A DNA stretch of 53,633 bases. Origin: Candidatus Aegiribacteria sp. GTDB lineage: Bacteria > Fermentibacterota > Fermentibacteria > Fermentibacterales > JCC-6. Positions within the stretch are counted from its first letter, which is position 1. The number at the start of each line of letters is the position of its first letter. The stretch is taken from NCBI GenBank assembly GCA_021108005.1, contig JAIORS010000169.1, positions 1 to 53,633 of the forward strand, written 5' to 3'. The notes beneath the pieces are model-generated. The model was not told where the DNA came from and ran no database searches. It saw only the letters and a list, made by a program, of their open reading frames with translations. Of the stretch, positions 1 to 53,438 are shown one piece after another. The translations under genes were made by a program, and so were the position numbers.

Positions 1-797
1 GGTTTGATGATTCTGTATGCTTCCTGCAGGAATCCGCTGATTTTAAACAATTCAACAAGTCCCTGCAGTGTCATTGCGGTATCAAAACTTTCCGACGCTA
101 TGGGAAGCTGCCGTACATCCCCTCCGATTGCTTCGCTGATTGAACTTCGCCCGATATGTTTGAACCGGTACTGGATATTCCACACGCACTTCAGATCACG
201 TTCAACCGCGGCAATCCGTTTCAGTTCACTGTTCTGAAACGCCTGATGCGTTACACCGTATCCCCCTCCCGAAAGAAGGTCGATAAGATCATCCGGCTCT
301 GTTCTCTGTACCGCGTTCATAAACTCTTTGAAAATGTCAAGATTGACTCCGCCCTCAGCCGGAAACGTAAGTAATCGTTCCGCTCTTCCGTTGTGTTTGA
401 ACCATTCGCCCGAATCCCGGTACCTTGCCTTGCCAAGCAGTTCTTTTGTGACCGCGTTCGGATCTGATTCAACAGCTTTTGTATTTGTACTCCGATTGAG
501 CAATTGTTCGATTGACCTGTCAATCCCGATCTTCTTCAGTCTGTTCATAGAAAGCAGCCCATTAACAGGAATGCCGGGCGGTACTCCCAGAGCTTCATCC
601 ACGGGAGCCTGCCAGGTATTGACTGCCGTGTTCGACAGCAGGGCCGGTCTGCCAAGTATTATAGGATACTGATTATCACATCTCGCGCACTTCATTGTAC
701 CCGATCTGATGTCACTATTTCGCCTGGTCGTATGGTGGATTGATAGATGTCCCTTACATTCGGGACATCTGAGATATTCCAGAGCTGAGCTTCGCAT
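1..797 (-). CDS. Zinc-ribbon (Trm112-like) class I methyltransferase, 3' end cut off by the window
   Basis: The minus strand is open from an ATG at 797 to the window edge (265 codons, no stop), so the C-terminus is missing. A purine-rich GGGGGAGG lies just before the ATG. Cys11, Cys14, Cys37 and Cys40 form a CPEC...CARC zinc ribbon like the Trm112 module found ahead of some methyltransferases. Near residue 170 there is a glycine-rich strand-loop (LIDLLSGGGYG), then AVERDL and later GDVRQLPIASESFD, which fit SAM-binding motif I, the acidic motif II and the LPxxxxxFD motif of UbiE-like enzymes. The substrate cannot be told; the middle region between ribbon and methyltransferase core is not recognised. 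The family call is inference from motifs, without alignment. Confidence 0.6.
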   Translation of the reverse strand, partial: MRSSALEYLRCPECKGHLSIHHTTRRNSDIRSGTMKCARCDNQYPIILGRPALLSNTAVNTWQAPVDEALGVPPGIPVNGLLSMNRLKKIGIDRSIEQLLNRSTNTKAVESDPNAVTKELLGKARYRDSGEWFKHNGRAERLLTFPAEGGVNLDIFKEFMNAVQRTEPDDLIDLLSGGGYGVTHQAFQNSELKRIAAVERDLKCVWNIQYRFKHIGRSSISEAIGGDVRQLPIASESFDTAMTLQGLVELFKISGFLQEAYRIIK

Positions 798-833
798 AAA
801 TCCTCCCCCTATTTTAGTGTATCTGTAAGTTCT

Positions 834-863
834 ATATTAACAAGCAGATAGCTTCATTGTCAA
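834..863 (-). promoter_or_regulatory. Candidate sigma70 promoter for the left-edge methyltransferase gene
   Basis: On the minus strand a perfect TTGACA (858-863) is followed 18 bases later by TAATAT (834-839), about 37 bases before the start codon at 797. The -35 is strong and the -10 is weak (4 of 6). The remaining sequence from 864 to 1035 shows no gene or clear signal. Confidence 0.4.
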
Positions 864-1035
864 GGTTTGACAGGCAGGATCTTTATTCGTATATAGAAAG
901 TAGAAAACGTTCAGGTCGTTTCATATCGGAATGCATTTAACCAGTTATCACAGACTATGTTACTTCTATTTCAGGTAAAATAAAAACGTTTGTCCAGTCG
1001 GTACACCGATGAAAACACAAAAGTATATAGAGGAA

Positions 1036-1584
1036 TCATTCCTTTGGTGATCTTAGAATCCTCCGGTAGCTGCGTCTGACTTCCAGCATGAAGTCGTTGA
1101 ATCTCCCGTCAATGAAATCGGGAAAACTGTGATCGGGGGCTGTGAATATTCCATGACCGTATCTCAGGCAGGTATGAGCCCATACCCCGCGCCCCATGTA
1201 TATCTTGTCGGGAGCACTCTTAAAGGAAGCCAGGACAAGCTTTCCGTAATCCAGATAGCCCGGATCGATGTTCACACTGCGATCGCCATTATTATCGAGA
1301 AAACCGTTCTCGATATCGACGCAGGAATACTTCCAGTCAGCAAGATGTGATGCGTCAAGAAGTTCCATGAAACTGAACCACCGCCTTGTAAGCTCAGTAC
1401 CCATTTCCTTCTCGTAATAATCCGAAAGATCGAAAGGGTACATTTCGCTGATAATATCTATTTCACCGAATCGCGATTCAAGGATGGATTTCGTTTCCTC
1501 TTTTAGCGTTTCATCAGCCGTGATTACGCTTATCATCGGCATAACCTGTGGTGCTTCTACCGGTCCCGACATGATTTTATCCAT
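1036..1584 (-). CDS. DUF4416 family protein
   Basis: The 182-aa protein matches my recollection of the DUF4416 family: an N-terminal PVEAPQVMPMISVITAD strand, then FDLSDYYEKEMG, a central LADWKYSC region and the ending HTFPDF-like segment (here HSFPDFIDGRF). Function of the family is unknown; it is often annotated only as a hypothetical protein. The gene follows the N-acetyltransferase on the same strand and overlaps its end by 28 bases if the first ATG (1584) is used; an ATG four codons in (1572) shortens the overlap to 16. The overlap suggests the two are co-transcribed. No signal peptide or membrane segment is visible. Confidence 0.7.
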   Translation of the reverse strand: MDKIMSGPVEAPQVMPMISVITADETLKEETKSILESRFGEIDIISEMYPFDLSDYYEKEMGTELTRRWFSFMELLDASHLADWKYSCVDIENGFLDNNGDRSVNIDPGYLDYGKLVLASFKSAPDKIYMGRGVWAHTCLRYGHGIFTAPDHSFPDFIDGRFNDFMLEVRRSYRRILRSPKE

Positions 1585-2372
1585 TCCCTTTCCGCCGCCT
1601 GTGCTATATCTCTTCTAAGACCGAAATACGCCTCGATCTTTTCTGAGTAATCATCCCTGAGTTTTTCATTTTTCTTTCCTTCAGCATTCACACTGCGAAG
1701 GTTCATATTATGGGCAGACAGTCTTCCTTCACCGTTTCTGCAGTTAAGGTGAAGGCTGTTCATGCCTGTCGCGTCGAACGATCTCTGCCAGTGAGAAGTG
1801 AATGCATCAGGGCTTACCGGGTTCATTCTGACGCGATATTTCCAGTTCCTTGCGCTGTCGTTGACAGTGTAGAGATCGTACGTTTCGCCGTTATCAACCG
1901 GTTCCCAGATAAGCCTGTCATCGTACATTTCCAACTCCGGGGATTGTCCGGTTTCCAGCGGTACCGGTACGGAAACCAGATATCCTGGATCCGCGAGATA
2001 ACGTGATCCATCACCCGTTATTACGGAAAGGGCACAGTGTATGTTCTCTCCATGATTCATATCAGCCATGACAGGATGGCAGTGAAAACCGGCAAAAGAT
2101 AGAATCGTTCCCAGAGCTTCAGTTAGAGAAAAACAGGTGCCTCCCGCTCCGTTCTCTATGTGTTCTCTTATCACTGTATCAGCCAGCCTCAACCGGTTCT
2201 CTGCTGGAAGCCGCTGTGCTTTCACAAGGAACTTGGTCAGGTTTTCCCAGGGAATGCGTGAGAAATGTGAAATGATTATTCCGAGGGAATTGATGTCCGG
2301 TTTATGGGGCAATGCGCCGAAATGATCGAAAAATACGGATGCGGCCTGTTTCATCCTCTGTTTATCGTTCAT
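1557..2372 (-). CDS. Arylamine N-acetyltransferase family protein
   Basis: NAT-family enzymes transfer the acetyl group from acetyl-CoA to arylamines and related amines through a Cys-His-Asp triad. All three residues are visible in their usual settings: Cys80 in GAGGTCFSL, His112 in NIHCALS and Asp128 in LADPGY. The N-terminal RIPWENLTKFL is also typical of the family. Length (271 aa) is normal. An AAGGGAAA lies upstream of the ATG. Residues 31-53 are duplicated, with one change (Trp42 to Cys), in a remnant at 5438-5506 on the far side of the peptidase gene. The physiological substrate in an anaerobe is unknown; some members have biosynthetic roles. Confidence 0.82.
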   Translation of the reverse strand: MNDKQRMKQAASVFFDHFGALPHKPDINSLGIIISHFSRIPWENLTKFLVKAQRLPAENRLRLADTVIREHIENGAGGTCFSLTEALGTILSFAGFHCHPVMADMNHGENIHCALSVITGDGSRYLADPGYLVSVPVPLETGQSPELEMYDDRLIWEPVDNGETYDLYTVNDSARNWKYRVRMNPVSPDAFTSHWQRSFDATGMNSLHLNCRNGEGRLSAHNMNLRSVNAEGKKNEKLRDDYSEKIEAYFGLRRDIAQAAEREWIKSCRDR

Positions 2373-2449
2373 TCTATCGTTTCCCTTCTTACTATCCCGC
2401 AGGTACGCCTGAACAACCGCTTTCCCGTCGGAAGAGGTATGAAAGTTTA

Positions 2450-2584
2450 ATGGAAGACAACCGCATCCGCAAGCTGTGGTCGGAGCTGAGAGTACAGACC
2501 TCTGACGATAGAATCCTGGAAGATATGAACAGATGCCACACTTCTTCGTTAATTGTCAGATATTCCCTGAAGAATGTTCCTTGA
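2450..2584 (+). pseudogene. Internally deleted remnant of the YhcC-type radical SAM gene
   Basis: Bases 2439-2546 match two separate parts of the intact radical SAM gene at 5522: the first about 11 codons (MEDNRIRK versus MEDKRIRN) and then codons near 142-165 (VQTSDDRILE...MNRCHTS in both). About 400 bases between them, including the iron-sulfur cysteines, are missing. The reading frame happens to stay open for 44 codons to a TGA at 2584, but after RCHTS the sequence is unrelated. It lies directly upstream of and divergent from the NAT gene. A function is unlikely; it is best read as a scar of a duplication followed by deletion. Bases 2585-2673 show nothing recognisable. Confidence 0.75.
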
Positions 2585-2673
2585 CCCAAGAGGTGAGGGA
2601 AGCAGGTCATATACTTCGGAGCATACAGCCAAGCTTGGAGGGGAAGAGAGTGCCGCCTGGCTGATAATGGTGA

Positions 2674-5106
2674 TTATTTATATACAATAACCCTGTTTAC
2701 AGTAACGGAACCTGCAGGATCGATGGATAGTATCAAGTAAAGACCCTGCGGCACTGCATGTGTATCCCATATCAGAGAGTGTGCGCCAGCATCGAGTTCA
2801 CCCGAATGCACCGTCTCTATCGCCCTGCCGGCGGTATCGTAAACGGTTATCTCGAAATTGCCGCTGCTCGATAGTGTAACCGGAAAGGTAACAAGACCGC
2901 TGACAGGGTTGGGATGAGGGGTTCCCACCGAAGTGATGACACCCGCAGGATTATCATTTATTCCCAATCCGTTAATAACACCCTCTGAGGGAATCGCGTT
3001 ATGGGCGGTAACCATCCAGCAGATATCGTTTAAGCTTCCGATAGCGTCGAAAGCAAGGGTGACACTGCCCGTGGTATCGGTGACGCCGCTTACCCAGAGA
3101 CTATCGTGTGTCATGCATACAAGGGCATTCTCAACCATACCGTCCAGTTCACTCACCGAGAAAGCGGCCTGTGTGGAACCACTTGGCAGGCTGGTGGGAG
3201 CACTCACTGTAAGGTCATGAGGAACTGCTGTCCTCATATCCATTGTTGGGTCACCGAACCAGTGGAAAAGATCCCATTCCAACTCAGTACGATCGGTTGA
3301 AAATGGACACATTGGAGCTGAAGCCTCCATCTCCATCTTCGAGCACATCAGAGCCTGTCCGGCAAGGTAGTTCCCTGTGGGATCAGTGTACAGTGCGGGA
3401 GGGTTTACGTACTCATCATTAAAGGATTTATACAAACCGTAGCAGATGTAGTCGTTCCAGTAACTGCAACTTACATCCGTTGCAGCAAGTACACCTACGG
3501 CTCCCCCTTCCATCCGGAAGAAGTTCTCAGCAAAACAGTTACCGGAGAACTGACCGGTCAGGCAATTAACGCTCATAACCATGGGAGTCATCTCACCGTT
3601 TGTTAAGCCTGAGAGTTGTGATATTTTGAAGTACGGGTGACTCCATCCGGTAACACTTCCGTGGTCTCTGTGCTGAACAAGGAAAACTCCGGAGTTAATA
3701 CTTGACAGAATACCTGCCGCGTTACCATCCCAGACTATATCACCGGGAATCTGCTGCCCTGCGCTGGGAAGATCGTTTCTGTAGTAGTAAGGTGGTGAGG
3801 CGGAAGTATTCTTGTTGTATTCGCGCTGAACCGTTTTTCCGTAGATATTCATGTAGGTGTCACGGACCGTCTCACATGTGAAGCAGAACCAGCGTTGCGC
3901 AACCGTGCTGGAACCGCTGGTTGCCTGGAAATATCCCGCGCAGAGAACATTCCCCCAGAAACCAGCGTCCATCAGCGGGTCGAATTGCCATTTGAGGATT
4001 TTTTCCTGCACTATGGGATAATCAATTGTGGAAGTTACGAACCTGCTGTGAAAGATATCGGCCCTGAAATCGCTTGAGCCGTCCATGCATACATATCTGT
4101 TATCGGTATCGACAAAATGGTCACCGTAAAAGTCAAGGGTACCGGTTCCTGCGGTTAAATCTTCATCATCTCCAACGAAAAGAATGAAACTTGGTGGTAT
4201 AACCCATGTATCGTAGGCGTTCTGTATGTAATCCTTGATCTGTGTCTCGTTCCAACTTCCGGCTCCCACAATGGCGGTAAGGTAGCCCTGGTCCATTTTA
4301 GCATCGATGAAAACGTCCATCAAGGTGTCAACAAAACCATCGCCTGCGATTATCAACAGATCGGCTGCGGTGATATCTCTTGCCTGCTCCATGTTATAGG
4401 CTTTCACCGGCTCACAGTTCTCGGAGTTGATGGAATTTCGGGGTTCACCGAGTATTTCCGAATTGATTAGGGTTCTGTACGTATTTATAAAGAATCTGCT
4501 CTGAAGCCTCGGGTCGACATGAACGGTGCCGCCAAGATCAACAGTAACGCGAAGTTTAGGGGTTACCGTCAGGAGCCCTGTTTCAGCATCCCAATGGAAG
4601 GGAATGATATTGAACCTGCCCATATTCACTCCGCGAAGGGTTCCGGAATCCTCGAACACGGCTTCCTGCGAGGGGTATGCGCCATGGCTGTAAGCTTCCG
4701 GCAGGTATGTGAAGGGGACCTGCTCGTAGGAATTATCCACAGGAATGGGCTGCATGGGAGAAGGAGTAATGTTCATGATTACAACCGGCTCCTCAAGCAC
4801 CTCTACGCTGATGGATACGTTGGGGTTGTCAGGTATGGCAGCCATGAAGGATGCCTTTGGAAGCATCGGCGCTCCCTCCGCGTCTGCGTAGGGTGTAAGG
4901 GCCGGTACGCTTATGGAATTGAATGTCATTCCGTTCCCGGTAACCGGGTTGTTCTGGAAACCAGGCAGAGTGATATCCACTACAAAACCGGAGGCGGTAC
5001 ATTCCACCACTTCCAGATTGGCGTGATCAAGGTCGGATATGCCGAAGTCAACCCAATCAGCAACAACCATGGGAACCAGCGCCAGCAAAACAAAGATTGT
5101 TTTCAT
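2674..5106 (-). CDS. Secreted C25 (gingipain-like) cysteine peptidase with C-terminal sorting-type domain
   Basis: The 810-aa protein starts with a signal peptide (MKTIFVLLALVPMVVA, cut probably before Asp17). A gingipain-like propeptide region and catalytic domain follow. His482 in QHRDHGS and Cys515 in MSVNCLTGQF sit where the catalytic His and Cys of gingipains lie, followed by the typical GGAVGVLAATDVS. The last about 85 residues (from VGTPHPNPVSG to NRVIVYK) form an Ig/FlgD-like domain with the PNPV start and GLYLI-like ending of C-terminal secretion or anchoring domains used with type IX-like export. An AGGAT lies before the ATG, and a good promoter is at 5145-5173. It is monocistronic. 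It probably degrades proteins outside the cell for amino-acid uptake; export route is inferred. Confidence 0.87.
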   Translation of the reverse strand: MKTIFVLLALVPMVVADWVDFGISDLDHANLEVVECTASGFVVDITLPGFQNNPVTGNGMTFNSISVPALTPYADAEGAPMLPKASFMAAIPDNPNVSISVEVLEEPVVIMNITPSPMQPIPVDNSYEQVPFTYLPEAYSHGAYPSQEAVFEDSGTLRGVNMGRFNIIPFHWDAETGLLTVTPKLRVTVDLGGTVHVDPRLQSRFFINTYRTLINSEILGEPRNSINSENCEPVKAYNMEQARDITAADLLIIAGDGFVDTLMDVFIDAKMDQGYLTAIVGAGSWNETQIKDYIQNAYDTWVIPPSFILFVGDDEDLTAGTGTLDFYGDHFVDTDNRYVCMDGSSDFRADIFHSRFVTSTIDYPIVQEKILKWQFDPLMDAGFWGNVLCAGYFQATSGSSTVAQRWFCFTCETVRDTYMNIYGKTVQREYNKNTSASPPYYYRNDLPSAGQQIPGDIVWDGNAAGILSSINSGVFLVQHRDHGSVTGWSHPYFKISQLSGLTNGEMTPMVMSVNCLTGQFSGNCFAENFFRMEGGAVGVLAATDVSCSYWNDYICYGLYKSFNDEYVNPPALYTDPTGNYLAGQALMCSKMEMEASAPMCPFSTDRTELEWDLFHWFGDPTMDMRTAVPHDLTVSAPTSLPSGSTQAAFSVSELDGMVENALVCMTHDSLWVSGVTDTTGSVTLAFDAIGSLNDICWMVTAHNAIPSEGVINGLGINDNPAGVITSVGTPHPNPVSGLVTFPVTLSSSGNFEITVYDTAGRAIETVHSGELDAGAHSLIWDTHAVPQGLYLILSIDPAGSVTVNRVIVYK

Positions 5107-5144
5107 AGCTATCCTTTATTGTAAGAGTTTAATTCACTCTGATG

Positions 5145-5173
5145 AGTATACTTTAAGGTTGAAATAAGGTAAA
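5145..5173 (-). promoter_or_regulatory. Candidate promoter of the C25 peptidase gene
   Basis: Minus strand TTTACC (5168-5173), 17-base spacer, TATACT (5145-5150). The -10 matches 5 of 6 and the -35 4 of 6 consensus bases; the predicted start of transcription leaves a leader of about 30 bases with AGGAT before the ATG. Bases 5174-5437 upstream contain no gene that I recognise. Confidence 0.5.
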
Positions 5174-5437
5174 GCAAAGGCTTCGTCCGGTTTGAAATCA
5201 AGATTCTTATTACCCAGTCGAACATGAGCCTGTAGTTGTGCAGAAAATCAATATAGAGAATTCCGGAATAACCGCTTCCGTTCCAACCGGCGGATGGACC
5301 CCTGTTTCCGGTGGCATTGAAACCATTGTATGCGAGCGTAACACTACCGTCGAGTTTTCTGGCACGGATAGAACCTGACCTCTCATCTTTGCCGGTGCTG
5401 AATAAACTGCCATATGCCCGGTTCACACCACTGTTGG

Positions 5438-5506
5438 CGCTGTGCTTTCACAAGGAACTTGGTTAGATTTTCGCAGGGAATACGTGAGAAATGTGATATA
5501 ATTATT
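5438..5506 (-). pseudogene. 69-base remnant of an arylamine N-acetyltransferase gene
   Basis: These 69 bases match 2212-2280 (inside the intact NAT gene, codons 31-53) at 63 positions. Read on the minus strand they still encode the NAT segment IIISHFSRIP then ENLTKFLVKAQR, with Trp replaced by Cys between. No NAT sequence is recognisable on either side. It lies immediately upstream of the intact radical SAM gene in the same relative orientation as the intact NAT lies to the radical SAM remnant at 2450, so both loci descend from one divergent NAT/radical SAM pair. Confidence 0.8.
5494..5502 (+). promoter_or_regulatory. Extended -10 promoter candidate of the radical SAM gene
   Basis: TGATATAAT is a perfect extended -10 (TGnTATAAT) located 20 bases before the ATG at 5522. 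It lies inside the NAT remnant; the corresponding bases of the intact NAT gene read TGAAATGAT, so two substitutions create it. No convincing -35 is present, which extended -10 promoters may lack. Confidence 0.45.
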
Positions 5507-5521
5507 CATTATGAAAGTCTT

Positions 5522-6496
5522 ATGGAAGACAAACGAATCCGCAATCTTAACAGTTTTTTCAGACATGTTTTCGGATGCAAAGTCAAAAAGGTAATCCTGT
5601 GGGGAGGCTTTACATGCCCGAACAGGGATGGGACCTTCAGCAGTATGGGATGTACCTTCTGCAATCCCCTTTCAAGCCGTCCTGAGACTTTTGAAGAGGG
5701 TAAGTCCATCGCGCAGCAGATGGAGGACGGCTGCAGATACATTGCCAGAAGGTATGGAGTGCAATGCTTTCTTCCCTATTTTCAGGACTATACGGCAACT
5801 TATGGGGACCCTGTCGAGTTGGATGCCCTCTATTCAGAGGCGATATCACATCCGGGAGTGGTGGGTCTTTCATTATGCACACGTCCGGACTGCCTTGAGG
5901 AACCAATGCTTGATTATATCGAGGATCTGTCCGGGCGGATATTCCTCTGGGTGGAGCTGGGTGTACAGACCTCTGACGACAGAATTCTGGAAAGCATGAA
6001 CAGATGCCATACTTCCCGTGAAACCATGAATGCTTTCAGAGCCCTGCACTCCAGAAAGATATTCTCCTCCGCTCACATGATAATTGGTTATCCCGGTTCC
6101 AGCGTAGAAACCGTTCTGGCTGATGCCGAGTTCATAAGGAAGACCCGTACAGATGGAGTCAAGCTTCAGAATCTTCATGTAATCAAGAATACTCTCATTG
6201 CGGATCAATTCGCTTCAGGTGAATTCGAACTACTGACAATGGAGGAATATGTTGATCTGGTAATACTTTTCCTTGAACACACTGAACCAAGAGTAGTAAT
6301 ACTCAGACTCACCGGAGAGGCTCCGGAAGAGCTGACCGTCGCCCCCGAATGGTCTCTTTATAAAATGATCGTCCTGAACAGAATCCACGAAGAGATGCAA
6401 CGAAGGGACACATGGCAGGGAAAAGCTCTGGGATTCAATAGATCATCCGTTGAAAGTCCACCGGATAATATCCGTGACCACTGGAGACCGGACTGA
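5522..6496 (+). CDS. YhcC-like radical SAM protein (TIGR01212 type)
   Basis: The family is defined by FTCPNRDGT followed by a GCxFC pair, an unusual wide spacing of the three [4Fe-4S]/SAM cysteines; here FTCPNRDGTFSSMGCTFCN occupies residues about 29-47. Later family features are YFQDYTATYG, GLSLCTRPDC, WVELGVQTSDDRILESMNRCH and LQNLHVIKNT. The reaction catalysed is not known to me. I start at the ATG at 5522 (324 aa) because homology begins there; the 36 upstream in-frame codons derive from antisense NAT sequence. A GAAAG lies 4 bases ahead. A partial duplicate lies at 2450-2584. The downstream gap to asnS (106 bases) has only a weak 5-bp hairpin at 6561-6577. Confidence 0.85.
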   Translation: MEDKRIRNLNSFFRHVFGCKVKKVILWGGFTCPNRDGTFSSMGCTFCNPLSSRPETFEEGKSIAQQMEDGCRYIARRYGVQCFLPYFQDYTATYGDPVELDALYSEAISHPGVVGLSLCTRPDCLEEPMLDYIEDLSGRIFLWVELGVQTSDDRILESMNRCHTSRETMNAFRALHSRKIFSSAHMIIGYPGSSVETVLADAEFIRKTRTDGVKLQNLHVIKNTLIADQFASGEFELLTMEEYVDLVILFLEHTEPRVVILRLTGEAPEELTVAPEWSLYKMIVLNRIHEEMQRRDTWQGKALGFNRSSVESPPDNIRDHWRPD

Positions 6497-45614: not shown

Positions 45615-45691
45615 GCGCCCGTAGCTCAGCTGGATAGAGCAGCGGACTTCTAATCCGCAGGCCACAGGTTCGAATCCTGTCGGGCGTACCA
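45615..45691 (+). tRNA. tRNA-Arg (TCT), integration site of the island
   Basis: Acceptor GCGCCCG/CGGGCGT, anticodon stem GCGGA/TCCGC with loop CTTCTAA (anticodon TCT), T arm ACAGGTTCGAATCCTGT, CCA encoded (45689-45691). The gene is intact. Its 3' 42 bases are the antisense of the last codons of the serine recombinase, marking the left end of the island. Confidence 0.94.
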
Positions 45692-47230
45692 AAGTTCAAA
45701 AAGGCTGTTGGAATCATTTCCTTCAGCCTTCTTTGCTTCATAGACTCGGTTTGTATCTACAATCATATCATACGGATGTCGGAATTCTACCGAGAGATTT
45801 CCACCTTTCCAAAGGCAGTTCGAAAGTAGATTATTAAGAAGTCTTCTTTTCTCTGAACTATCTCTCTTAGAGTACGTAGTACGGGCATTTCTGATAAGTT
45901 CGAGAAGATCAACACTTCGCTCAAACTCTGCAGGATCTTCAGATTCATGTTTGACGATAGCTGAGAAGATATCCTCCATTTGATTCCTGCATATCTGTGA
46001 TTTCTCATTGAACATCTGAGGAGTAATGATACCTTCAAGCTTATCTTCATACATTGTATCCAGCTTCACCTGGAGTTTATCGTACTCAGCTTGAAGAATT
46101 GATATAGCTTTTTTCCTGTAGCTTCGTTTCTTCTTACTCATTTCCAAGTAATTATCTCTGAGAAAGTCTATTACCTCTTGATTGAACTCCAAAAGCCCCA
46201 GGAAATCACAGAATAGGCTATCTAAGACCGTTTCTCTTGTATACGGCTCATTACACTTACCCTTGTATCCTGTGCAATGGTAATAGATGTATTTGCCCTT
46301 CTTTAGCTCTCCAGTCATCATGCAGCCACAATGACCGCATCTTAATAGCCTTGAAAACGCAAAATCATGCTTCATTCGTCTTATCTTGCTGGAATTGCGG
46401 TCTAGCATAGTATCTTGAACCTTCTGCCAAAGTTGTCTGGAAACGATTGGTTGATGTTTGCCTGAATAGGTGACTTCGTTCCAGTCAAAATCACCATAGT
46501 AGATTTTGTTCTTGAGCATTTTATGTATTGCAGATCGGGCAAGAGGATTTCCAGATCCTCGTTGATTCAATCCCGCATCTCTGGCAATCTTTGACAGTTC
46601 AGATACTGAGCAATCACCTTCGGAGTATTTCTCAAATAGCATCCTGATGATTGCAGCTCTATCTGGATCTGGTTGAATGATCTTCTTGCCACTTCGTGAA
46701 ACTGCATTCAGATAACCAACAGGAGCATATGAAGGCCATAAACCCTGTCGAGCTTTCTGTTGCATTCCTTTAGTGACTTCCTCAGAAAGGTTATCAACGA
46801 ATTGCTTTGCCATTAATACTCGAATACCATGCATGAATTTCGCTGAAGATCTCGACTCAGAGGAGATGATCGTATTCTCCTTAACCAGGTGTATTTCCAG
46901 TTCAAGTTCATCAATAGTTACCCAGTCTTTGATGTTACGGTAGAGCCTGTCGGTCTTTTCAACTAAAACGGTCTTGCAGTTATCATTCTCTTTAAGGTAT
47001 GAAAGCATAGCATTGAATTGCGTTCTACCTGCTTGTTTAGCAGTTTCAACATCTTCGAAGACTCTTGCTATAGAGAAACGGTTGTTCTTAGCATACTCCC
47101 TGATCAACCTCTTTTGAGCAGGTATAGAATAACCTTCACGCTCTTGATCCTTGGATGATACACGGACGTAAAGGACTGCTTGAATCCTTCTGCCATGTAC
47201 CTTTTCTGCTCTTAATCTCTTGTTTTCCAT
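45650..47230 (-). CDS. Large serine recombinase (integrase)
   Basis: The 526-aa protein integrates and excises the island through a phosphoserine bond. Catalytic Ser25 lies in AVLYVRVSSKDQ, with EKTDRLYRN and the resolvase domain up to about residue 150. A recombinase domain follows (WPSYAPVGYL to KMLKNKIYYGDFDW), then a zinc ribbon (CGHCGCMMTGELKKGKYIYYHC) and a coiled coil (about 370-440). The last 13 or so codons (ending YARQDSNLWPAD) are read from the antisense of tRNA-Arg, a feature of elements integrated at a tRNA end. GGTGAAAGC precedes the ATG. Confidence 0.93.
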   Translation of the reverse strand: MENKRLRAEKVHGRRIQAVLYVRVSSKDQEREGYSIPAQKRLIREYAKNNRFSIARVFEDVETAKQAGRTQFNAMLSYLKENDNCKTVLVEKTDRLYRNIKDWVTIDELELEIHLVKENTIISSESRSSAKFMHGIRVLMAKQFVDNLSEEVTKGMQQKARQGLWPSYAPVGYLNAVSRSGKKIIQPDPDRAAIIRMLFEKYSEGDCSVSELSKIARDAGLNQRGSGNPLARSAIHKMLKNKIYYGDFDWNEVTYSGKHQPIVSRQLWQKVQDTMLDRNSSKIRRMKHDFAFSRLLRCGHCGCMMTGELKKGKYIYYHCTGYKGKCNEPYTRETVLDSLFCDFLGLLEFNQEVIDFLRDNYLEMSKKKRSYRKKAISILQAEYDKLQVKLDTMYEDKLEGIITPQMFNEKSQICRNQMEDIFSAIVKHESEDPAEFERSVDLLELIRNARTTYSKRDSSEKRRLLNNLLSNCLWKGGNLSVEFRHPYDMIVDTNRVYEAKKAEGNDSNSLFELWYARQDSNLWPAD

Positions 47231-47346: not shown

Positions 47347-48666
47347 CTAAATAGCTGATGAAGCAATATCATTAATAGCTCTATCTCCTGGGTGTAAAAT
47401 CTTACTTTCCCGATTTATCTGATGTGTGTTTGCGGTGTTAGTAATAGAGGGTGATTCAGACTTTTCGGGAAAGGTTACATCTATATCTTCAATTGGTTGG
47501 TCAATGACATCAATAAGTTCTCTTACATCCTCAGTCAAAAACCAAACGCTCCTCTTGCTTTGCTTTGTCTCTGTAAGAATTCGATGTGATACCAAATCTT
47601 CACATACTCGTCTTACAGTAGTATTTGGATGACCAATAACTGTTACTAGTCCCTTCAGATCCATTTCTCCGTTCTCGCATATACTCCAAATAACTCTTCT
47701 CCTAAGTTCCGGCATCGAAGATAATCCAACTTCATGAGCCAGTTCCCAAGCTTCTTGGACATTACATCCAATAAGAATTGAACCCTTGAAAAGACTCATC
47801 AATGCTTGGGCAAATCTTGGAGAAGCTTCTATATGATGAATGTGTGTAATTTCTCTCTTATAACCATCTCTCTCTATCGTACTTCTAGCACAGGTAACCA
47901 AGGAAGCGAGTAATGCAATTCGCTCTCGAATGAAATCGTCGACTTCAGGTTCATATTTGAATTCAAGAACATGATCTACTAGAGTCTTCGTCATATTCCT
48001 AAGAGTATTTCTGACGAGACTCTTTTTGCATTCTCTACTCAAAACCATTCTGGCCTGTTCAATCGAAGTCGCTAAATCGGTTTTGATTCTGAACATTGTG
48101 AAGCGTTCACCCATTGAACTCATTGCTTCATGTTGAGAGTCGATCTTCTGAGTTACCGCCCCGATGAAGCCGATCTTGCCTTCCCAGACGGTATGCCATC
48201 CCCCATCTGTTCCAAATGCTCTTCTCATGCGACCGTCATAGATATCTCTAAGAGCTGCAAAACTTTCTAATCGAGTTTCATTGTTCATTGAAAGAACACT
48301 AGTAAAATCCTTACATATGAGAATCCCAAAATCACCAATTTCCTTGAGAAGACCGCCTTTTGCATTTTTCGCAACCTCTCTCTTAGGAGTTCCAGAAAGC
48401 AATGCTGCTTTTGTAAAAGTACCAATCTCAAAAACATCATTGAGATCCCGAAGCATATTTAGTATTTCTGTTTTACCACTTGAAGGAGAAGAGACAATTA
48501 GAAGCCATACAGGAGCACCTTCAAGGTAATTCCCTATGAACGTAGCTAAAACGATTCTCAGTGTAAGCGGATCATTCAAGTACACCCATTTGGAGAATTT
48601 CACCTCAAGGTTAAGTAAGTATTCCCTTGATTGCTCATAGATTGAAGCCTTTGATGCAATAGACAC
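47347..48666 (-). CDS. AAA+ type ATPase with likely C-terminal winged helix
   Basis: The 439-aa protein has Walker A at residues 59-66 (SSPSSGKT) and a Walker B-like GILICKDFTSVL about 55 residues later, then IGFIGAVTQKID and SSMGERFTMFRI, an arrangement like the sensor and arginine-finger region of helicase-type AAA+ proteins. Residues about 310-380 (LRRRVIWSICENGEMDLKGLVTVIGHPNTTVRRVCEDLVSHRIL) look like a winged helix. Similar proteins occur in phages and plasmids near replication genes, so a replication or origin-melting role is plausible but not shown. The start is a GTG with a weak site. I cannot name a family with confidence. Confidence 0.5.
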   Translation of the reverse strand: MSIASKASIYEQSREYLLNLEVKFSKWVYLNDPLTLRIVLATFIGNYLEGAPVWLLIVSSPSSGKTEILNMLRDLNDVFEIGTFTKAALLSGTPKREVAKNAKGGLLKEIGDFGILICKDFTSVLSMNNETRLESFAALRDIYDGRMRRAFGTDGGWHTVWEGKIGFIGAVTQKIDSQHEAMSSMGERFTMFRIKTDLATSIEQARMVLSRECKKSLVRNTLRNMTKTLVDHVLEFKYEPEVDDFIRERIALLASLVTCARSTIERDGYKREITHIHHIEASPRFAQALMSLFKGSILIGCNVQEAWELAHEVGLSSMPELRRRVIWSICENGEMDLKGLVTVIGHPNTTVRRVCEDLVSHRILTETKQSKRSVWFLTEDVRELIDVIDQPIEDIDVTFPEKSESPSITNTANTHQINRESKILHPGDRAINDIASSAI

Positions 48667-49239: not shown

Positions 49240-49713
49240 TCATGTTCGCTTTCCATTTCTCAACGACATGTGAATTTCCTTAACTTGCTCCGTAAGCATG
49301 GAAATCTCTTCATCTTCTGTCTCATCAAGGAGTTTTCCATATTCATCAGCGATAAGTATTTGTAAGCAGGGCAAAACAAGTACATCCATAATACTTTTCT
49401 GTTTAAGACCAATGAATGATTCTGCTAACAGTTTTGGGATTTCAGGATGATCACTGAGAAGATCTGAAAGTGAATGAGTAGGTCTTCTGGCTAATCTAGC
49501 AAGCTTAATGGGATCTTCATTTAGTTCCTGAGCAAGGTGAGTAATAAGAAAGATGTTAGAAGGAGGAGGGAGCTTCCCCTGCTCGATTTGAGAAAGATAA
49601 GAAGGACTAATGCCGACTCTTCTTGCGAGCTCGCGAAGGCTCATATCACCTTCACGATGGCGAAGCTCCCTTATTCGAATACCGAAATCGGGTTTGAATT
49701 CCATTAGAGTCAA
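49240..49713 (-). CDS. XRE-family transcriptional regulator
   Basis: The 157-aa protein has a lambda-repressor type HTH (SLRELARRVGISPSYLSQIEQGKLPPP, about residues 24-50), then a helical region (LAQELNEDPIKLARLARRP) and a C-terminal part of unknown fold. It probably represses its own gene and the leftward genes, because matching operators lie at both promoters. A TTG start at 49713 has AAGGA seven bases upstream; an ATG three codons later (49704) lacks such a site. It is the likely master regulator of island maintenance. Confidence 0.85.
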   Translation of the reverse strand: MTLMEFKPDFGIRIRELRHREGDMSLRELARRVGISPSYLSQIEQGKLPPPSNIFLITHLAQELNEDPIKLARLARRPTHSLSDLLSDHPEIPKLLAESFIGLKQKSIMDVLVLPCLQILIADEYGKLLDETEDEEISMLTEQVKEIHMSLRNGKRT

Positions 49714-49866: not shown

Positions 49867-50586
49867 GTGAATGAAGTAATCGAAGGAGGAACTCAAATAG
49901 GCTCATCAAGGAAACCTAGAATTATTAGGTATGGTGAGAAGAATGTGTTACGCCTTGAGGAAGAATTTTTTGAGAAATATCCGTGTGAATCATACACAGA
50001 ACAATGGATTAGAAATCATCCGGAATGGACTAAAGCTGCAGCAGCCTTGGTTGAATCTCTGCATAAAAGAGAGGTTTCGAGAACACAATCAGCTACAAAG
50101 AAGGCTCATCTTGTGTTAACTGCATCTTTTGTTGCATTAGGCGTTATTGGATGGATTATAGCCACATTCCTTGGTGGTATATTCCCAATTGAAGTTACTT
50201 CAGTGTCTTTGTGGCAAGGTGTTATTACGCCAATTATTAGCTTAGCATCAGCAAGTCTAGCAGCAGTGTTTCTGATATATGCAATTTGGTGGGCTCTAGA
50301 TGCTCTTAAACCAATAGTGTTTTCTGACATTAAAATAGAGAATGCTCTTCGACTAAAGAACAAAAAAAGTACGAACCAAGATGAAAAAGAAAAGAATCTG
50401 GATGAATCTTTTGATTTGCGGGAGTTCTGCACAAGAAGAATTTATCTTGATTGGCAGTGTATCTATGTAAGAGAGAGCTTAAATGAGAGTCTACTTCTTT
50501 CCTTTTCACGGGCTTGGCATCGTCTAGCCTTTGGAATAACTTTGCTATTATGTTCATGGTTAAGTGGATTAATATCTAGAATGTGA
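49867..50586 (+). CDS. Membrane protein of the rightward cassette
   Basis: The 239-aa protein has a soluble N-terminal part (about 1-78, with EEEFFEKYPCESYTEQWIRNHPEW), two membrane helices (about 81-103 and 118-145), a charged cytoplasmic stretch rich in Lys and Glu (about 155-180), and a third helix at the end (about 217-237). No family is recognised. The start is a GTG at 49867 with no clear ribosome binding site, so it is uncertain; a GGAGG lies inside the frame at about 49884 without a usable start codon after it. It is the first of five same-strand genes. Confidence 0.6.
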   Translation: MNEVIEGGTQIGSSRKPRIIRYGEKNVLRLEEEFFEKYPCESYTEQWIRNHPEWTKAAAALVESLHKREVSRTQSATKKAHLVLTASFVALGVIGWIIATFLGGIFPIEVTSVSLWQGVITPIISLASASLAAVFLIYAIWWALDALKPIVFSDIKIENALRLKNKKSTNQDEKEKNLDESFDLREFCTRRIYLDWQCIYVRESLNESLLLSFSRAWHRLAFGITLLLCSWLSGLISRM

Positions 50587-50593
50587 GGATAGA

Positions 50594-50836
50594 ATGACTG
50601 CGAAGAAAACAAACTCAAGTAATGAAGCTTCGATGGAAACTTCATCAAGTGATACTTCAACTTCAGAAACAGCATCATCAACTAGTGATTCTCCAGAACC
50701 CATTGCTAGTATAGCACCCATTGATAGGCATGGAAGAATTGTTACTGCAAGTGTGAAAACCAATGAAAATTCCACTAAAGTAATATTTGCTGTAAGAAAA
50801 TCTGAAGAAAACTCTAATTCATCAGATAAAGAATAA
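50594..50836 (+). CDS. Ser/Thr-rich small protein
   Basis: The 80-aa product begins with a low-complexity, acidic Ser/Thr-rich half (MTAKKTNSSNEASMETSSSD...), then a more ordered stretch (IASIAPIDRHGRIVTASVKTN, KVIFAVRK) and a charged tail. No family, signal peptide or helix is recognised. GAGGATAGA lies before the ATG, and it starts eight bases after the membrane protein stop, so it is translated with it. It directly precedes the Ntn-hydrolase-like gene; whether it is a substrate, adaptor or inhibitor is unknown. Confidence 0.5.
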   Translation: MTAKKTNSSNEASMETSSSDTSTSETASSTSDSPEPIASIAPIDRHGRIVTASVKTNENSTKVIFAVRKSEENSNSSDKE

Positions 50837-50891
50837 TACTTCTGCCTCAAAGGCTCAGTATTCATTCGATAGCAAAATGTAAGGATAGTAA

Positions 50892-51668
50892 GTGTCAATA
50901 CTTATTGTAGAACTTCTAGATTGCGGTATTGTCTTTGGTGCTGATCAAAATGTTGACATTCCCAATCAAGATGATCCAAATAAAGAAATAAAAATATTCA
51001 AGTGGCCCCGGGAAGATGTTCTGTTTGGGTATGTTGGAGTTGCAAGATTGGGGGGATTAGACATAAAAAAATGGTTAGATAGCCAACTTTCACAATTTAC
51101 AAACAGAATGAGATTATCAGAAATAGCAGAGCATCTAAGGGATCAAATCGAGAAGCAATATTTAGAGGATAATTATTCTACTAATCCACCACTTATTGTT
51201 CATCTAGGAGGTTATGAATATTCAGAGTGGGGTTATATTCCTCAGATATGGCATATAGCTAATGTGAAAAGGCTTGGTAGATTCAATTACCTTGAGTTTA
51301 CGAGAGAATTCTACTGTGTGGATGGTTTCGCTGTAGAAATGAGGAAAAGAGAAGTATCGGATTTAGAAATACAGGATTATCTTTGTGTACTAGCTAAGCA
51401 ATTCAATCCATTTTGGTTTCATCAGGGCTTTGACTATATGGCCTTTAATATACTTGAACAAGCAGTCAAGCAAGCATATAAAGGTCTATGCTCAGTACAT
51501 CCTGATTCTGATTTTGTATTACCCCGGAATATTGAAGATTGGGAGAAACAAGTCCGATTTTCAATTCTCATGTATGGAGCGTATTTTCAGGCATATAAAC
51601 CAAGAAATGAACAATACGTCGGAGGTGAAGCTGATACTCTTGCAATACCATGGCCAAAATTCAAGTAA
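50892..51668 (+). CDS. Proteasome-beta/HslV-like Ntn hydrolase
   Basis: The 258-aa protein begins M-SILIVELLDCGIVFGADQN. Counting from Ser2 as residue 1 (Met is normally removed before Ser), Asp falls at 17 (GADQ) and Lys at 33 (EIKIFKW), the positions of the catalytic Thr1-Asp17-Lys33 set of proteasome beta subunits; a Gly-rich turn (FGYVGVARLGG) follows as in the beta fold near Gly47. The nucleophile would be Ser instead of Thr. The C-terminal about 100 residues (DYMAFNILEQAVKQAYKGL...) may correspond to the helical layer plus an extension. The start is a GTG after GGATA. No AAA+ unfoldase of Clp/HslU type is next to it. The assignment rests on motif register, not on alignment. Confidence 0.6.
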   Translation: MSILIVELLDCGIVFGADQNVDIPNQDDPNKEIKIFKWPREDVLFGYVGVARLGGLDIKKWLDSQLSQFTNRMRLSEIAEHLRDQIEKQYLEDNYSTNPPLIVHLGGYEYSEWGYIPQIWHIANVKRLGRFNYLEFTREFYCVDGFAVEMRKREVSDLEIQDYLCVLAKQFNPFWFHQGFDYMAFNILEQAVKQAYKGLCSVHPDSDFVLPRNIEDWEKQVRFSILMYGAYFQAYKPRNEQYVGGEADTLAIPWPKFK

Positions 51669-51729
51669 TTTGAGTTCTTTAGCAGATTACAAAGCATAAC
51701 TATTAATTCATATAAGGAAGGGGCAGACA

Positions 51730-52035
51730 ATGGGTGAATGGGCTGATTATTGTATAGTTGCAATTAGATATGGAAATTCACGCAAAGAAATTTCACATCT
51801 TAAGGTGAGAAGAGATCTCTCTAGTCATTTTGGATCTCCTGAAACTTGGACAAAGGAAGAGACTAGAATAAAGATCACAGACTTCTTCAGGGATATAATT
51901 ACCATGACTTATGATGGTGAAAATTGGAATAAAGGAGCAAAGGTTCAAGCTGTAAGAATTGATAATAACTATTATCTCCGAACAAATGCGAATAGTATCA
52001 AGGAAGATAACCTTGGAGAACTTCCTGAATTCTAA
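51730..52035 (+). CDS. DUF3892-like small protein
   Basis: The 101-aa protein has the general layout I associate with DUF3892: an N-terminal strand (DYCIVAIRYGNSRKEISHLKV), a helix beginning TKEETRIKITDFF, and the ending NNYYLRTNANSIKEDNLGELPEF, close to the family's yLrT...DNL..LP ending. The function of that family is unknown. A strong AAGGAAGGGG lies before the ATG. Fourth gene of the cassette, 61 bases after the hydrolase gene. Confidence 0.6.
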   Translation: MGEWADYCIVAIRYGNSRKEISHLKVRRDLSSHFGSPETWTKEETRIKITDFFRDIITMTYDGENWNKGAKVQAVRIDNNYYLRTNANSIKEDNLGELPEF

Positions 52036-52091
52036 AAGAAGAGGGTTCAGTTCCTATTGAGATTATGTAGAGTAAAATAGTCTGGAAAAAC

Positions 52092-52814
52092 ATGTCAGAA
52101 GTTCCTAATAAAACTGAATCAAGGGCAAACTGGTCGCTGGGAATGTCCATACTAGCATTAGTAGTGTCAATAATAGCTGGGATTTACTTTCCATATTTTC
52201 TGGAAGATCGCGAACTTTCTTTACTAACATCCGGTTTTAGTTATATCACTCACACAACTATAGAGAATGATAGCACAATAACGAATATTCTTGCCTGCGA
52301 TCTCACATTTACTAATAATGGTAATCGAACAGAAGTTGTCCTAAGTACGAAGTTTGTCTTACCTTTTTTCCTTAACTTTTGTGAGTTCGCTGGATTTTAC
52401 TGGAATGTGCAGTACCAGCAGGTCCAGTTACCTCCGTTTTCTATCAAACCTGGAGAAAAACTGGTATTTAGACTAGAGCAACTCATTGATGATAATGCTA
52501 TTCTTGGGCCATCCATCAATAATCCAGGCTATACTGGATTTGGCTTTAATCTGGCAAATAGGATAATTGCGCTTGAAGTTTTACTGGTCGGGCAATATGG
52601 AGTACCCCAATTTAACGTAATTCCAATTGCAGGGGCATTCCTCAATCCAAACACTTCGAATTTATCTTGGAGACTATTTTCGAGTTTTGATGATTTCTAC
52701 AGTTATGGTGGTGTGACGCTTACTAGAAATCTACTTGATACAGAACACTTCGCATGGGAATATTTCCCTAAACGAGATGCTCCATATATTCAAAATAACA
52801 CTCTTGTACATTAG
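52092..52814 (+). CDS. Membrane-anchored protein of the cassette
   Basis: The 240-aa protein has one N-terminal membrane helix (about 14-36, NWSLGMSILALVVSIIAGIYFPYF) followed by a beta-rich domain with CDLTFTNNGNRTEVVLST and LPPFSIKPGEKLVFRL, the pattern of an Ig-like or bacterial-surface fold. No catalytic motif is seen. It would sit on the outer face of the cytoplasmic membrane or be cytoplasmic, depending on helix orientation. GGA lies before the ATG. Last gene of the cassette. Confidence 0.6.
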   Translation: MSEVPNKTESRANWSLGMSILALVVSIIAGIYFPYFLEDRELSLLTSGFSYITHTTIENDSTITNILACDLTFTNNGNRTEVVLSTKFVLPFFLNFCEFAGFYWNVQYQQVQLPPFSIKPGEKLVFRLEQLIDDNAILGPSINNPGYTGFGFNLANRIIALEVLLVGQYGVPQFNVIPIAGAFLNPNTSNLSWRLFSSFDDFYSYGGVTLTRNLLDTEHFAWEYFPKRDAPYIQNNTLVH

Positions 52815-53147: not shown

Positions 53148-53438
53148 TCAAGAGATAACCTTTATTGGATGTTCGAACTCATTACTTAACTCGAATGAAA
53201 TGCTACCAATTCTCATATGATTGATGCCCTCGTTGCCATAATCAGTGAAAAGACGAAGTCTATCCCCAGCAGTTGCAGGAGTACAACCAGCTTCCATCCA
53301 ATCATCTCTATTCATCGAAACAAGCTCAGATGCCATTTTTTTAGAAACAAGGAATTTTGATGCATCAGGATTCTTGTCCATTAAATCATTTAACTGTGCA
53401 AAAAAAGCATTTGCTGGTGTCTTGTACTGTTGAGACAT
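53148..53438 (-). CDS. Small hypothetical protein
   Basis: The 96-aa product (MSQQYKTPANAFFAQLNDLM...) has a helical first half and a strand-rich second half (MRIGSISFELSNEFEHPIKVIS). No family, signal or membrane segment is recognised. GGAAAA precedes the ATG. A half copy of the XRE operator (TGTTCAGT, 53452-53459) lies just upstream, which could mean that the gene belongs to a related element and not to the old chromosome. It lies between the two 29-bp direct repeats. Confidence 0.5.
   Translation of the reverse strand: MSQQYKTPANAFFAQLNDLMDKNPDASKFLVSKKMASELVSMNRDDWMEAGCTPATAGDRLRLFTDYGNEGINHMRIGSISFELSNEFEHPIKVIS

Follow-up and report, generated by a model that had tools for sequence, protein, structure and literature searches.

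The window, by which we mean the whole analyzed stretch of DNA (53,633 nucleotides, from Candidatus Aegiribacteria sp.), encodes a very divergent protein that almost certainly belongs to the proteasome-like Ntn hydrolases, is carried by an integrated mobile element and is encoded next to a DUF3892 protein. The fold, the catalytic residues, the relatives, the pairing with DUF3892 at two loci and the defense context of several relatives are supported by the computational analysis, and we infer, with about an even chance of being right, that the Ntn hydrolase and the DUF3892 protein form a defense or conflict effector module directed against phages or other elements. Proteins of this kind and their catalytic residues are already known from the homologs of Fuchs et al. 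2021; the new observations are the DUF3892 neighbor, found at this gene and at that of the relative L023, and the location of five of the approximately 14 independent loci of relatives within restriction or other defense clusters.

The gene and its predicted active site are given below in mature numbering, with conservation taken from the final alignment, A4, which consists of 18 rows, 17 of them full-length.

50892..51668, + strand: gene for the proteasome-like Ntn hydrolase, 258 aa, GTG start; Ser1/Asp17/Lys33/Gly48
50881..50885, + strand: AAGGA, similar to a ribosome-binding site, read in the sequence 6 nt 5' of the GTG start
50895..50897, + strand: codon of Ser1, the predicted nucleophile; Ser or Thr in 17/17 full-length A4 rows
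50943..50945, + strand: codon of Asp17; Asp in 16/17 full-length A4 rows, Glu in L063
50991..50993, + strand: codon of Lys33; invariant, 18/18 A4 rows
51036..51038, + strand: codon of Gly48, in the oxyanion-hole region (equivalent of proteasome Gly47); 18/18 A4 rows, with identical spacing in the genome's own HslV

An in-frame TAA (50889-50891) lies immediately 5' of the GTG, which rules out an upstream start and places Ser at residue 2, to become Ser1 once Met is removed. The protein is predicted to lack a propeptide; by the rule for Met-Ser, Met1 would be cut off by methionine aminopeptidase, and the N-terminal Ser, judging from the sequence, would then be free to act as the nucleophile. The first-pass annotation had placed Ser, Asp and Lys at 1, 17 and 33 together with GIVFGAD and a glycine-rich turn, and the codon positions read in the sequence agree: Ser1, Asp17, Lys33, Gly45 and Gly48 are all present in the mature numbering, and both turns, GIVFGAD and GYVG, are in place. 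On its own, the spacing does not rise above chance, two of the 988 possible start codons of the window being compatible with S/T1-D17-K33, and hence homology had to be demonstrated. The second compatible start belongs to an unrelated 96-aa ORF (53148-53438) with a chance S1-D17-K33 arrangement, a caution against arguments from spacing only.

Compared as a single sequence with Pfam, NCBIfam, PADLOC, PHROGs, PDB, plasmids, phages, viral contigs and genome contigs, the Ntn protein gave no match; PF00227, the Pfam family to which Anbu belongs, was not matched even at E<=1, and hand-made DNA patterns yielded only chance matches in viral contigs. A search of 383 genomes with the Ntn sequence identified one true relative, L023, and further relatives were recruited with profiles of two, four and nine sequences; L002, L003 and L024 were rejected as relatives, their matches being judged to be due to chance. 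In a five-sequence comparison, pairwise BLAST joins the Ntn protein to L023 (7e-9) and L030 (2e-7), and the identity to the nearest relatives is about 20%. When the A4 profile was compared with the PDB, the best 60 of 71 chains were all proteasome subunits (best E 9.6e-5). The model of the archaeal proteasome beta subunit is matched at 3e-4 by a relative in L049, which scores 0.005, under the cut-off, against PF00227. With the query left out, the profile recovers its ORF, and no other of the 312 ORFs of the window, at E=5e-12, and it still does so at 9e-7 when L023, L030 and L031 are omitted as well; against 2000 shuffled sequences, the best E of the leave-out profile is 0.23.

The AlphaFold (AF2) model obtained using A4 has a pLDDT of 67.7 (about 85 for residues 1-125) and a pTM of 0.68, with low confidence over most of residues 126-212 and poor segments at 142-183 and 195-212; from the single sequence, the pLDDT is 39. 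A Foldseek search with the A4-based model listed 50 matches, all of them Anbu or 20S subunits (E 1e-6, probability 1.0). When profiles are compared directly, HslV alone gives a weak match (E 1e-4 with a probability of 58%, and 2e-3 with 12%), and therefore the case rests on the PDB-wide profile and the fold matches, which agree on the proteasome-like Ntn fold put forward in the first-pass annotation, a four-layer alpha-beta-beta-alpha sandwich. It is highly unlikely that the protein is a degenerate enzyme or that the resemblance arose by chance. The long terminal branch of the protein in the tree (2.5 changes/site) and the single sequence that lacks a direct Pfam or PDB match are compatible with such an explanation, but the active-site columns are intact in A4, the leave-out profile recovers the query at 5e-12 and the Foldseek probability for proteasome-fold chains is 1.0; chance resemblance, in particular, is already largely refuted. 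The relatives retain the Ser/Asp/Lys set, with either Ser or Thr at position 1, so that neither outcome named in the first-pass annotation as refuting, a different fold or homologs devoid of this set, was observed.

Two further claims made at first reading, a long C-terminal extension and a Ser nucleophile that marks a distinct branch, did not hold. The VGGEADTLAI end aligns with the core strand TVGGPIDVLLIT of the relatives, a VGGpiD strand near the C-terminus being common in the A4 rows, and the extra length in the A4 alignment comes from residues inserted internally, at about 126-212; these appear to fall between H3 and H4, where the AF2 model is poor. Ser1 is found in 10 of the 17 full-length rows, spread over mixed clades, and the tree includes at least three Ser/Thr interchanges at position 1; the Ntn protein itself clusters with the Thr1 proteins L023 and L030 (support 100/99), its deep placement being unsure with long branches.

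In the survey by Fuchs, Alva and Lupas 2021, 22 orphan homologs of the proteasome are described that have Thr1/Ser1, Asp17 and Lys33 and lack propeptides, and for which the authors reported no gene neighborhood that hints at a function; the PMI-type homologs among these have H3-H4 insertions that could block double rings, and some of the homologs are phage-borne (PMC8665760). By the published description, the Ntn protein resembles group II, especially the PMI type (multiple insertions), in Thr1/Ser1, Asp17, Lys33 and the oxyanion Gly, the lack of a propeptide, the common core, a probable H3-H4 insertion and the patchy distribution in bacteria, and differs from the group in the pairing of its gene with DUF3892 and in the presence of relatives in defense loci. 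By analogy, the extra residues that seem to separate H3 from H4 make the usual stacked double ring unlikely, and the protein probably is a monomer, a small oligomer or a single ring with restricted specificity.

Anbu is the best structural match of the model (5nyw, E 1e-6, TM about 0.56 by query), but the identity is about 15% and the Ntn chain stops just past the last strand (E248-253), without the long C-terminal H5 coiled-coil helix. With respect to HslV and the 20S beta subunits, the spacing of the catalytic residues and of Gly45/Gly48 is identical to that in the genome's own HslV (L004), with which the first 48 residues align without gaps and have A16, D17, V20, K33, I34, K36, V42, L43, G45 and G48 in common. 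Unlike HslV and 20S beta, the Ntn protein does not match PF00227, contains the internal insertion, has Ser in place of Thr and is encoded without a nearby HslU or proteasomal ATPase. The only PF00227 gene found in the genome encodes a normal HslV and adjoins HslU on another contig, in accord with the earlier statement that the Ntn gene has no unfoldase partner in its vicinity. Connectase belongs to the same superfamily and shows that its members need not assemble into rings; in contrast to connectase, the Ntn model has the H1-H2 helices and no S3/S4 helical insertion.

The mobile element that carries the Ntn gene is delineated by the following features.

45615..45691, + strand: tRNA-Arg(tct), left edge of the element and candidate attachment site (ARAGORN; GC drop)
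45650..47230, - strand: large serine recombinase (Pfam Resolvase 4.7e-23, Recombinase 1.1e-14, Zn ribbon 6.9e-11)
49240..49713, - strand: helix-turn-helix regulator of the element (Pfam HTH_31 5.7e-12)

With its 3' end, the recombinase ORF overlaps the tRNA-Arg, which is the likely attachment site. Past this edge, the GC content drops from about 0.49 to 0.36-0.40, and none of 41 further genomes from the phylum contains the Ntn gene, two chance matches aside. The recombinase, the tRNA-Arg edge, the GC drop and this absence sustain the initial view of the gene as cargo of an integrated mobile element. The contig ends at 53633, short of the right end of the element, and no att repeat was found inside the window. 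The element also encodes a 439-aa P-loop protein (47347-48666) that has no family match above the cut-off and might be replication- or helicase-like.

Five same-strand ORFs extend from 49867 to 52814, with the Ntn and DUF3892 genes among them; the neighbors of the Ntn gene are as follows.

49867..50586, + strand: 239-aa protein with at least 2 predicted membrane helices (hydropathy), possible operon partner; PADLOC PycTM E=0.004 and PHROG membrane protein E=0.0006, both weak
50594..50836, + strand: 80-aa low-complexity ORF between the 239-aa membrane protein and the Ntn gene, maybe not a gene
51730..52035, + strand: DUF3892 gene, 101 aa (PF13031, E=4.8e-10)
52092..52814, + strand: 240-aa protein with an N-terminal membrane helix (hydropathy), possible operon partner; no family match

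The DUF3892 gene starts 61 nt 3' of the Ntn gene, and in the L023/L035 relative, a DUF3892 gene is located about 65 nt away, on the opposite side of the Ntn gene. These two DUF3892 neighbors are 32% identical and both end in DNL.ELPEF, and the two Ntn genes, in the window and in L023, come from different phyla. Because DUF3892 is rare (above the cut-off in 4 of 258 genomes), it is unlikely that the pairing occurred twice by chance. DUF3892 was rejected as an obligate partner of the Ntn hydrolase, given that the further DUF3892 loci examined all lack a neighboring Ntn gene. A dsRBD/HPF-like fold has been proposed for DUF3892, along with a role in sensing viral RNA or altered ribosomes, and in the DUF3892-Min-Wnt conflict proteins this domain is likewise tied to a candidate effector (PMC12419801); there, DUF3892 is fused to a lipocone effector, whereas here it is encoded by a separate gene beside the Ntn hydrolase.

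The 239-aa two-helix membrane protein (49867-50586) is itself a possible effector. Bacterial proteases switch on gasdermins, and in a similar manner, the Ntn hydrolase might be a protease that switches on an adjacent membrane effector, either the 239-aa two-helix protein or the 240-aa protein. We consider this improbable: the genes are on the same strand and closely spaced (49867-52814), and the 239-aa protein combines two predicted helices with a weak PycTM match, but neither membrane protein was recognized beside the relatives examined, the matches are weak and any cleavage site is hypothetical.

Five loci of relatives are defense-associated. The surroundings of L035 include type II restriction genes (a GHKL-type REase and a C5 MTase), Vsr, AbiD (1e-88) and GmrSD/HEC-05; in L036, the Ntn gene comes after a type II REase (6e-113) and an Eco57I MTase; in L084, it is located between hsdS and hsdM; in L085, it is 6 nt 3' of a type IIG restriction enzyme; and in L086, it has an E1-like ThiF gene (1.8e-26) on one side and genes of type I restriction on the other, an arrangement suggestive of a bacterial defense locus that combines conjugation with a hydrolase. 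Five of about 14 is estimated to be well above the 1-2% of a genome expected, a background that is itself a rough, unmeasured estimate. Toxin-antitoxin-type neighbors (SocA/MqsA-like, Fic) were detected in L083 and L087, and the remaining approximately seven lineages are found among ordinary genes or in loci that are cut off. About half of the relatives are in non-defense settings (S-adenosylhomocysteinase, TyrRS, tandem pairs), and hence the wider family is not defense-specific. PADLOC gave no match to a known system for either the Ntn or the DUF3892 protein. The defense interpretation is further weakened by the pairing with DUF3892 in two loci only and by the fact that islands gather unrelated genes.

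Several of these loci have additional features. Between hsdS and hsdM, the L084 locus (235-5536, G127) has a PIN-like gene (by eye) and uncharacterized genes in addition to the Ntn gene; the Ntn homolog of L085 (7927-11922, G485) is 366 aa with a long extra C-terminal part; and the ThiF/E1-like protein of L086 (5696-8525, G369) contains a JAMM-like HSHP...SRDD motif (by eye).

The adjacency of the ThiF/E1-like gene to an Ntn gene in L086 would fit conjugate processing and thus also bears on the idea that the Ntn protein acts specifically as an amide ligase or transpeptidase, similar to the archaeal connectase, a ligating member of the proteasome-like family (PMC8665760), that joins or recycles a peptide tag and degrades no proteins. 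Such a role appears quite unlikely, considering that the AF2 model has helices at the H1-H2 positions, which are missing in connectase, and no long S3/S4 insertion, and that no E1, E2 or JAMM gene was recognized among the island proteins scanned. Somewhat less doubtful, although still on the unlikely side, is a peptidase that serves the upkeep of the element itself, for example by degrading a regulator, and has no part in defense. An HTH regulator and a recombinase are encoded on the same element, half of the relatives are in ordinary chromosomal contexts, the viral structure matches of the model include Gordonia phage Nymphadora, and phage-borne homologs (PPH, AAH) without a known defense role have been described (PMC8665760). 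Against element upkeep, five relatives lie inside restriction or other defense loci, and these do not belong to a single kind of mobile element.

For the defense module, we tentatively hypothesize a mechanism in which DUF3892 is the sensor. The Ntn gene would be cargo of the serine-recombinase element, probably co-expressed with DUF3892; the DUF3892 protein would detect the intruder and the Ntn hydrolase, once activated, would serve as the effector and cut a single target or a few, with a predicted effect on phages. After Met removal, the free alpha-amine of Ser1 would act as the general base and Ser1 Ogamma would attack the amide bond, with Lys33 and Asp17 tuning the nucleophile and the backbone of Gly48 forming the oxyanion hole. 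It is conceivable, although we would not bet on it, that this is an undescribed class of defense modules, with DUF3892 as the sensor and, under its control, a Ser1 proteasome-like hydrolase as the effector, and, more broadly, that some orphan bacterial proteasome homologs are immune effectors repeatedly recruited into restriction and defense loci. The orphan homologs thus gain a concrete, testable functional hypothesis, with a DUF3892 partner and with relatives placed in restriction loci of types I, II and IIG and close to genes for AbiD and E1-like proteins; if it is true, the proteasome fold joins the folds that are common to prokaryotic immunity and eukaryotic protein turnover.

Elsewhere in the family, tandem Ser1 Ntn paralogs were observed in two genomes of one family (L049:1483-3042 and L059:667-2214) and perhaps form a hetero-oligomer. 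In three genera of one family (L046, L047 and L048), a Ser1 homolog is located beside S-adenosylhomocysteinase and/or a metallophosphoesterase (by eye), and because these neighbors are kept in all three genera, some branches of the relatives look chromosomal.
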